NCBI RefSeq assembly: GCF_008017455.1
Contig: NZ_VRTY01000016.1
Location: 1-64,000 of the forward strand
Source: Pontibacter qinzhouensis
GTDB lineage: Bacteria > Bacteroidota > Bacteroidia > Cytophagales > Hymenobacteraceae
DNA length: 64,000 nt
Direction of reading: 5' to 3'
The notes beneath the pieces were generated by a model. It had not been told where the DNA came from. It saw nothing but the letters and a program-made list of their open reading frames with translations, and did no database searches. This document shows positions 61,754 to 62,128 of this stretch, piece after piece. Each line of letters opens with the position of its first letter. The first letter of the stretch is position 1. The position numbers and the translations under genes are program-made.

Positions 61754-61859
61754 ATTTATAAAGAAGAGTGGAGAGACAGGCTCAGTGAAACTCTAGCAAC
61801 CTAACTGCCAAGGTAAAGGTGCTAATTCCTGATTCCGAAAAGTTCGGAAGAATATAAAT
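61754..61859 (+). promoter_or_regulatory. SAM-I riboswitch (S box) of metY
   Basis: P1 = ATTTATA (61754-61760) with TATAAAT (61853-61859). AAGAGTGGAGAGACAGGCTC, the GTGAAACTCTAGCAACC segment and AAGGTGCTAATTCCTG match the conserved SAM-I core; P4 is TTCCGAA-AAG-TTCGGAA (61833-61849). It controls sulfur amino-acid genes in response to S-adenosylmethionine, as expected in front of metY-metX. The 3' arm of P1 ends 10 bases before the leader ORF, and there is no terminator directly behind it, so control of translation is more likely than of termination. Confidence 0.93.
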
Positions 61860-61869
61860 TGATAACGCA

Positions 61870-61998
61870 ATGAAAAAGGGAATCAAGAGAACATCGTATT
61901 GTACTGTATATGTGCCTTCAGAAAATCTGAGTAGGCATCGTCATTTCTTATCTCAAAGGCCAATGCCTGTGCGAATAGGATCCTGTTGCTGTTGTTAA
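61870..61998 (+). CDS. Leader peptide with a C-terminal run of four cysteines
   Basis: A 42-codon ORF starting ATG AAA AAG with an AT-rich leader, located 10 bases after the SAM riboswitch and 130 bases before metY. It encodes a basic peptide (opening MKKGIKRTS) that ends RIGSCCCC directly before the TAA; the codons are TGT TGC TGT TGT. The stop codon lies in a hairpin (TTAACAC/GTGTTAA, 61995-62021), followed by a second one (CAGGAGT/ACTCCTG, 62025-62051). The design resembles amino-acid-sensing leader peptides, with cysteine as the sensed residue, which fits a gene that makes homocysteine/cysteine intermediates. Coding potential by itself is weak because the ORF is short. Confidence 0.55.
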   Translation: MKKGIKRTSYCTVYVPSENLSRHRHFLSQRPMPVRIGSCCCC

Positions 61999-62051
61999 CA
62001 CCGACGCTGCATTCGTGTTAATCCCAGGAGTAGCTGCTGCAGACACTCCTG
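61995..62051 (+). promoter_or_regulatory. Two tandem hairpins after the Cys-codon run
   Basis: Hairpin 1 TTAACAC/GTGTTAA contains the leader stop codon; hairpin 2 is CAGGAGT/ACTCCTG. No T run follows, so they do not look like an intrinsic terminator. TCCTG at 61981-61985, at the Cys codons, could also pair with CAGGA of hairpin 2, giving a possible alternative fold. Confidence 0.5.
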
Positions 62052-62128
62052 CTGCCTCATAAATATACTTACACATTCCTCCTGAAAAACTTTTACATTC
62101 ATTTAAATCCTTCTATATAATCAAAGAT

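Follow-up and report, generated by a model that had tools for sequence, protein, structure and literature searches.

The leader of the metY-metX operon in the 64,000-nt stretch of Pontibacter qinzhouensis DNA analyzed here (the window) joins in series a SAM-I riboswitch aptamer and a short open reading frame (uORF) that ends in consecutive cysteine codons. This arrangement is real, conserved, and gene specific; it is undescribed as far as we searched and is a new combination of two known kinds of leader. We established its parts, their order and spacing, the reading frame, the specificity for certain genes, and the spread among genomes. On this basis, we consider it likely that the leader takes several inputs, with SAM closing P1 over the ribosome site of the uORF and the supply of charged Met- and Cys-tRNA setting the ribosome's stop.

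The SAM-I (S-box) aptamer lies at 61753..61860 (+) and matches Rfam RF00162 with 83.6 bits (E value 3e-18, gathering score 44.4), the covariance model scoring above gathering over the full aptamer, positions 1 to 108. Its P1 strands are GATTTATA and TATAAATT. A tandem riboswitch is absent, since this is the single Rfam match at gathering score in the whole window. Nine nucleotides separate P1 from the ATG of the uORF (61870..61998, +), whose 42 codons encode MKKGIKRTSYCTVYVPSENLSRHRHFLSQRPMPVRIGSCCCC, with the C terminus Gly-Ser-Cys-Cys-Cys-Cys-stop. The four Cys codons (codons 39 to 42, TGT TGC TGT TGT; 61984..61995, +) abut the stop, and codon 32 (61963..61965, +), seven codons 5' of the run, is the one Met codon among the 12 that precede it, a class of positions enriched in Met in metY leaders. 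Folding of the leader predicted a first hairpin, AACAC/GTGTT (61997..62019, +), which overlaps the uORF stop and whose conservation is only putative, and a second one, CAGGAGT/ACTCCTG (62025..62051, +). The spacer between uORF and metY (61999..62128, +) is C-rich and G-poor, with 30 C and 15 G in its first 100 nt. It is followed by metY, encoding O-acetylhomoserine aminocarboxypropyltransferase (homocysteine synthase; 62129..63457, +; TIGR01326, 676 bits, cut-off 495; PF01053), and by metX, encoding homoserine O-acetyltransferase (63468..64000, +), which runs off the window and scores 203.6 bits with TIGR01392, a value that reflects 177 in-window residues only and is below the whole-protein cut-off of 500. 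The succession of aptamer, 42-codon ORF with four terminal Cys codons, hairpins, and metY is thus the one that the original prediction had described. Neither Pfam nor NCBIfam contained a family for the uORF peptide. As a query against 150 genomes of the family, it matched 7 genomes with an E value of <0.01, the host included, and one of these matches has internal stops; matches are few because little except the ends of the peptide is conserved.

Bacteroidota-type promoters carry a TTTG element at -33. A predicted promoter of this type, TTTG-N20-TATTATTG (61689..61720, +), ends 32 nt 5' of the aptamer. By itself, the pattern is no rarity, with 3 matches versus 4.7 expected in the window; within 100 nt 5' of the aptamer, it was present in 39 of 62 Cys-uORF leaders versus 14 of 1240 mononucleotide shuffles, and it ended 31 to 33 nt 5' of the aptamer in 25 of the 30 leaders listed. 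The accessible text of PMC9723704 quotes the promoter box as TAnnTTTG. Given the position of the pattern and its recurrence before Cys-uORF leaders, the aptamer and the uORF most likely belong to the same transcript as metY, as its leader, and we infer that transcription starts just 5' of the aptamer.

The host genome contains four SAM-I aptamers. At three of them, a uORF begins 6 to 10 nt past P1 and contains a string of four or five Cys codons; these uORFs precede metY, a PAPS reductase gene (PRK02090, 280 bits, cut-off 154), and a gene like those of nitrite/sulfite reductases (best match NirA, 159 bits, below the cut-off of 523). By eye, the three peptides have nothing evident in common except the Cys run. 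The fourth aptamer, located before metH, has no Cys uORF.

We read 119 SAM-I loci, 93 from the host genus (the 4 host loci, the 29 best matches, and 60 further places of the same aptamer list) and 26 from the order, all picked as best scoring by aptamer score rather than drawn at random. The original prediction hinged on a Cys run conserved in relatives, and the run was there: uORFs with at least three consecutive Cys codons were found at 62 of the 119 loci (65 with at least two) and, within the genus, at 35 of the 39 metY loci. Genus loci of cysH (6/6), RimK-like (8/8), NhaC-like (4/4), TonB-dependent-receptor-like (2/2), and NirA-like (1/1) genes all had a Cys uORF, as did L107, which lies outside the gene-labeled set and whose gene looks like cysH. 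None was found before genus metH (0/27) or metB/Z-like or similar genes (0/5). In the order, the uORF preceded metY at 4 of 6 loci (the other two lacking such a uORF) and metX at the single locus but was absent before metH (0/12), metB/Z-like genes (0/4), and other loci without a gene label (0/3). The genus metY exceptions comprised two loci with no run (L043 and L052) and two with a run of two (L088 and L094). Gene labels were based on short sequence motifs, those for TonB and metB/Z being assigned by eye; when NCBIfam was run on one example each, metY included, cysH scored above its cut-off, and the NirA-like, RimK-like, and NhaC-like examples scored below theirs. The geometry is tightly kept among the 39 genus metY loci, where the uORF starts 9 nt past P1 in 38 and 11 nt past it in one, and metY begins 110 to 151 nt 3' of the uORF. 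The Cys uORF therefore follows the downstream gene, being present before metY, cysH, and RimK-like genes and absent before metH; the metH leaders of the same genus provide a built-in negative control.

The RimK-like ATP-grasp gene, which scores below its family cut-off, stands behind SAM-I and a leader with 6 to 7 Cys codons at L048, L053, L064, L066, L070, L074, L076, and L097, and this predicted regulation suggests a role for it in Cys or thiol metabolism. The NhaC-like transporter, also below its family cut-off, is found behind SAM-I and a Cys leader at L056, L085, L093, and L116 and is perhaps a methionine or cysteine transporter instead of an Na+/H+ antiporter. At L083 and L125, a TonB-dependent-receptor-like gene follows SAM-I and a short leader ending in CCYSCCC.

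A chance origin of the Cys run was ruled out by shuffle counts and by the genomic background. In shuffled +1..+230 regions, a TGY run of at least three occurred in 19 of 2380 cases, and one of at least four occurred in 1 of 2380. The host genome has TGYx4 at 232 places in 6.2 Mb (both strands) versus 27 for the reversed pattern, which amounts by arithmetic to about 0.4% per 230 nt of one strand and exceeds the shuffle rate; despite this background, in three of the four host SAM-I leaders, 4 or 5 Cys codons follow one another in frame. The arrangement in the window is therefore real and not a product of chance. The roughly 9-fold excess of TGYTGYTGYTGY over its reversed control in the host genome, perhaps due to codon repeats in coding DNA, calls for caution in any poly-Cys scan.

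Several properties indicate that the run is read as codons. At least three TGY triplets in a row were present within 230 nt 3' of the aptamer at 64 loci, and at 61 of these the first ATG opens a frame that continues without a stop into the run (exceptions L075, L094, and L147). Both Cys codons are used (389 TGT and 251 TGC in 130 distinct peptides), the run sits 0 to 2 codons from the stop in 123 of 136 leaders, and its length ranges from 3 to 9 codons. Across genera, no conserved residues were evident outside the run. A phase test on indels (130 of 138 gaps were multiples of three) was discarded as evidence, because both ORFs had been chosen as ORFs and hence must differ by multiples of three.

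The metY leaders carry a second kind of codon. In 87 such leaders, Met accounted for 149 of 1044 codons (14.3%) in the 12 positions before the Cys run versus 17 of 2084 earlier codons in the same leaders; Met is scarce in this early part as if internal starts were avoided. In contrast, the same 12 positions contained 10 Met in 312 codons (3.2%) in 26 Cys-type leaders (cysH, RimK-like, NhaC-like, and NirA-like). At least one Met was present there in 77 of 87 metY leaders versus 9 of 26 Cys-type leaders, and averaging over peptide clusters (41 metY and 21 Cys-type) gave 10.6% versus 3.4%. ATG counts in the three frames of the stretch before the run were 143, 12, and 2 (82 metY leaders). Homocysteine, the product of MetY, is the precursor of methionine. 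The excess of Met in metY leaders over Cys-type leaders indicates that the control codons follow the gene, and since metY leaders carry Met codons besides Cys, they may read two charged tRNAs. The two-input device originally proposed, sensing SAM and cysteine, was therefore right as to the Cys run but incomplete. The leader has consecutive control codons for an amino acid linked to its operon, conserved in relatives, as charged-tRNA-sensing leaders do, and from its codon content, it probably senses charged Cys-tRNA, and in metY also Met-tRNA, under SAM gating.

A scan of named genomes for an aptamer core followed at a distance by TGYx4, irrespective of frame, returned at least 120 stretches; among the matches listed, 109 were from Bacteroidota by title and 11 from other phyla. 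The Bacteroidota among them comprised Cytophagales and its families, Mucilaginibacter and other Sphingobacteriales, Chitinophagales, Saprospiraceae, Lewinella, and one Psychroflexus. Of these 109 listed matches, 108 had an in-frame ORF with a run of at least 4 that started 12 to 120 nt past the core (74/74 among the first 80 listed and 34/35 among the rest). The sole miss, L243, has a 19-codon ORF ending in MCCCC that starts 9 nt beyond the limit. This Mucilaginibacter lappiensis locus contains two SAM-I aptamers, at 3168-3282 and 4009-4111, about 730 nt apart, and the MCCCC ORF follows the first. Under a stricter rule requiring the first ATG, 64 of 73 passed among the first 74 Bacteroidota listed, one having no ATG in range; in the 9 failures, the frame of the first ATG closes before the run and another ORF reaches it. 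Rfam found SAM-I in all 16 of the Bacteroidota loci submitted (of the 109 listed) but not in 10 of the 11 listed matches from other phyla, all of which were submitted. The remaining one, Terrisporobacter L229, has SAM-I without a Cys uORF, and three others (L208, L259, and L271) lack SAM-I but contain an ORF of some kind that includes a Cys run. The device is not universal in Bacteroidota, because among the best 30 SAM-I loci of a phylum-wide sample, 22 of which came from one family, a run of at least 3 was absent from all 29 that could be read, of which 20 precede metY; two loci had CC.

Poly-Cys leaders also occur without the riboswitch. Scanning 395 genomes of the phylum for five Cys codons and a stop gave 41 matches in 34 genomes, a raw count that means little because the reversed control gave 28. 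Of 30 of these 41 loci that we read, 12 had the run in a short ORF before a gene. Rfam found SAM-I in three of the 12 (L277, before cysH, L280, and L281) and not in the other nine. Among the poly-Cys leaders of other Bacteroidota in which Rfam found no SAM-I, the downstream gene was cysS at L276 (by NCBIfam) and L275 (by likeness to L276), a uroporphyrinogen-III methyltransferase gene at L288, a sulfate-binding protein gene at L295, and a serine acetyltransferase gene at L297; these five leader ORFs lie around locus position 1500. The SAM and Cys leader may be a poly-Cys leader device with a SAM aptamer placed in front. At L284 to L287, from four genomes of one genus, leaders ending in MRM and 6 to 9 Cys lie about 50 nt before a gene, with no SAM-I found by Rfam. 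By eye, the gene looks like one for a phytanoyl-CoA-dioxygenase-type oxygenase, with no NCBIfam match at 1e-10, and its product is possibly a sulfur-scavenging enzyme.

Translation in Bacteroidota mostly starts without Shine-Dalgarno pairing. In metH leaders, a downstream complement of the P1 5' strand of at least 8 nt was found within 80 nt in 28 of 32 cases (mean longest, 10.3), and the metH SAM-I platform (e.g., at L002 and L092) is apparently of the classical alternative-fold type. Such an anti-P1 complement of at least 8 nt was present in only 1 of 62 Cys-uORF leaders, in which the P1 3' strand runs into the start of the uORF instead. SAM-I switches in which the 3' strand of P1 contains the ribosome site are an established type (Barrick and Breaker 2007, accessible text of PMC2258182). 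Since the P1 3' strand meets the uORF start and this type is known, SAM probably blocks translation of the leader. The anatomy, with the P1 3' strand 9 nt before the ATG and no anti-P1, supports the earlier proposal that SAM gates access to the leader.

According to the original prediction, the cysteine supply would decide the downstream fold; the analysis gave no support for this step. Over 130 leaders, pairing of the Cys run with the spacer was not above that in swapped controls (mean rank, 0.465 ± 0.027; z against shuffles, -0.56 ± 0.10). A classical competition between the Cys run and a downstream hairpin is visible in the window, where CAGGA can pair either with the TCCTG that opens the run or with a second TCCTG farther 3', but the 130 leaders gave no locus-specific signal for it. 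The modeled effect on access to the metY start was tiny, with accessibility differing by 0.014 ± 0.006 between stall and stop (78 metY leaders), which speaks little for sequestration there. An intrinsic terminator after the uORF was rejected because the T content after the best hairpin (one hairpin for each of 130 leaders) was at background. The 8 nt after that hairpin contained a median of 3 T and a mean of 2.7, the expectation from 33% T, with at least 4 T in 40 and at least 5 T in 9 of the 130 leaders; inspection of the window found no U tract after either hairpin.

The spacer has other features. Its folding energy is below that of shuffles (mean z, -1.48), and 32 of 35 genus metY leaders contain a CAG..CTG hairpin 27 to 49 nt past the stop versus 7% of shuffles. 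The flanking pairs of this hairpin covary, with 135 paired cells versus 116 ± 4.3 (maximum, 129) in 500 shuffles, a figure that is indicative only because related sequences are not independent. In the window, the second hairpin overlaps this site with a different pairing (CAG, 62040-62042; CTG, 62049-62051). The excess of C over G in the spacer was +10.6 in 57 genus leaders versus +1.3 in 29 upstream regions of other window genes. Because the spacer is C-rich and G-poor, folded, and endowed with a covarying hairpin, and because a uORF sets Rho termination in the mgtA and corA leaders (accessible text of PMC11552253), Rho-type early termination is our first guess for the output, a tentative one that may well be wrong. 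A ribosome at the Cys run would shield little of the 110- to 151-nt spacer, so a simple shielding model for Rho is not self-evident.

We propose the following mechanism. On a transcript starting just 5' of the aptamer, plentiful SAM would close P1, and with the AUG of the uORF 9 nt past its 3' strand, the leader would not be started. When SAM is low, the leader peptide would be translated, and its codon content suggests that the ribosome would slow or stop at the terminal Cys codons (in metY also at the Met codons) if charged Cys-tRNA (or Met-tRNA) is short. A ribosome held at the run would allow transcription to continue into metY-metX, while lack of leader translation, or completion of the uORF and release of the ribosome, would prevent it; these steps are the least certain, as is their likeliest means, a Rho-kind early termination in the C-rich, G-poor spacer with the conserved hairpin helping. 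The net logic would be that metY-metX is fully on only when low SAM coincides with a low Met/Cys supply.

Other explanations account for part of these observations. If the SAM riboswitch were the sole regulator, the uORF could be a plain spacer, translated so as to protect the leader from Rho and without any tRNA sensing. The distance between P1 and the ATG would by itself put leader translation under SAM control, and the stretch between uORF and metY is C-rich, but a plain spacer needs neither a terminal run of 3 to 9 Cys nor Met codons that follow the gene, and poly-Cys leaders also precede sulfur genes where Rfam finds no SAM-I; we hold this explanation to be unlikely. The stall itself might also have another cause. 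For nascent-chain arrest with a small-molecule co-inducer, tnaC is the model, and poly-Cys in the exit tunnel could stall the ribosome, alone or with such a co-inducer, rather than a lack of charged tRNA. That the run sits at the stop agrees with this idea, and no fixed peptide would be required if poly-Cys itself stalls. However, the variable run length (3 to 9), the Met/Cys mixtures, and the absence of evident conserved residues beyond the run across genera argue against it, and the Met enrichment in metY leaders fits tRNA supply better, making arrest of this kind quite improbable.

It is very improbable that the uORF serves to make its peptide, as a small Cys-rich protein that would bind metal, sulfide, or thiols. 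Many species have the C-terminal poly-Cys in an ORF that is in frame, yet outside the run the peptides from different operons of one genome show no evident relation, and those of the genus have diverged; moreover, in the loci that we read, the ORFs sit between SAM aptamer and gene, and their Met codons vary with the downstream gene. Nor do we give any real weight to the view that (UGY)n is an RNA motif for protein or RNA binding rather than a series of codons. UGY repeats are simple, and TGYx4 is common in the host genome, but the first ATG shares the frame of the run at 61 of 64 loci, 64 of 73 Bacteroidota among the first 80 matches listed pass the first-ATG rule with the other 9 reached by another ORF, and the flanking Met codons are in frame (143 versus 12 versus 2).

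Sensing of charged tRNAs under SAM gating can be put in a more specific form, which we favor slightly: a three-input RNA device of Bacteroidota in which SAM-I would license or block a leader peptide whose end would read Met- and Cys-tRNA, the mix being tuned to the gene product. Met and Cys codons would serve for metY, and Cys with little or no Met would serve for cysH, RimK-like, and other genes. In such a device, the expression platform of the riboswitch would be an attenuator peptide without an intrinsic terminator.

The components have precedents, compared here with the accessible text of each source. The SAM-I switches whose ribosome site lies in the P1 3' strand (PMC2258182) have in common with our leader the RF00162 family and a P1 3' strand directly before a start codon; there, translation of the gene is attenuated directly, whereas here it is a Cys-ending uORF that begins at this place, and metY lies 110 to 151 nt past that uORF. 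Mycobacterial polycysteine short ORFs are reported to respond to cysteine (Canestrari et al. 2020, via PMC9094748, PMC9031893, and PMC13236596) and, likened by description and not by sequence, resemble the host uORF in being short, containing Cys codons in a row, and preceding Cys/sulfur genes. They are leaderless and belong to another phylum, whereas here a 108-nt aptamer and a predicted promoter lie 5' of the uORF, which places the putative transcription start well before its ATG. The uORFC-8-2 motif before cysS in Rhodobacterales (PMC8632094) shares a tandem-Cys uORF and a proposed ribosome-mediated attenuation but has two Cys codons at positions 14 and 15 and a 3' U run fitting an intrinsic terminator; unlike for the host leader, no riboswitch aptamer is mentioned in the accessible part of that source. 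Riboswitch and translated uORF act together in one leader at metE and ppe2 of Mycobacterium tuberculosis (PMC11260477), where the ligand is B12, the accessible text notes no amino-acid control codons, and ppe2 uses termination-reinitiation with overlapping ORFs. In mgtA/mgtL of Salmonella and E. coli (PMC11552253), a leader structure is likewise joined to a leader peptide, and the elongation rate at Pro and acidic codons of mgtL sets Rho termination; the differences are Mg2+ dependence instead of a SAM-I aptamer, other codons, and occurrence in Proteobacteria. Within the same phylum, leader-peptide attenuation is suspected upstream of amino-acid biosynthesis operons of Flavobacterium psychrophilum (PMC9723704), and sORFs of Bacteroides thetaiotaomicron are reminiscent of leader peptides (PMC7366714); both are short leader ORFs, and the accessible texts mention neither a combination with a riboswitch nor a Cys run. 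The term "leader peptide" is absent from the text of a regulon survey that includes Bacteroidaceae (PMC3766115). A search of the accessible open-access literature, with subscription journals mostly outside its scope, found no description of SAM-I joined to a Cys-codon leader.

To our knowledge, attenuation has been little studied in Bacteroidota. A leader is commonly regarded as either a riboswitch or a control-codon leader; here, the two stand in series, repeatedly, before different genes. The results also suggest that poly-Cys leaders form a larger class, in part lacking a SAM aptamer, before cysS, serine acetyltransferase, sulfate-uptake, and siroheme-pathway genes. If the proposed mechanism is true, the leader would be a natural logic gate for sulfur metabolism, in which two or three sulfur signals could be integrated by a single RNA.
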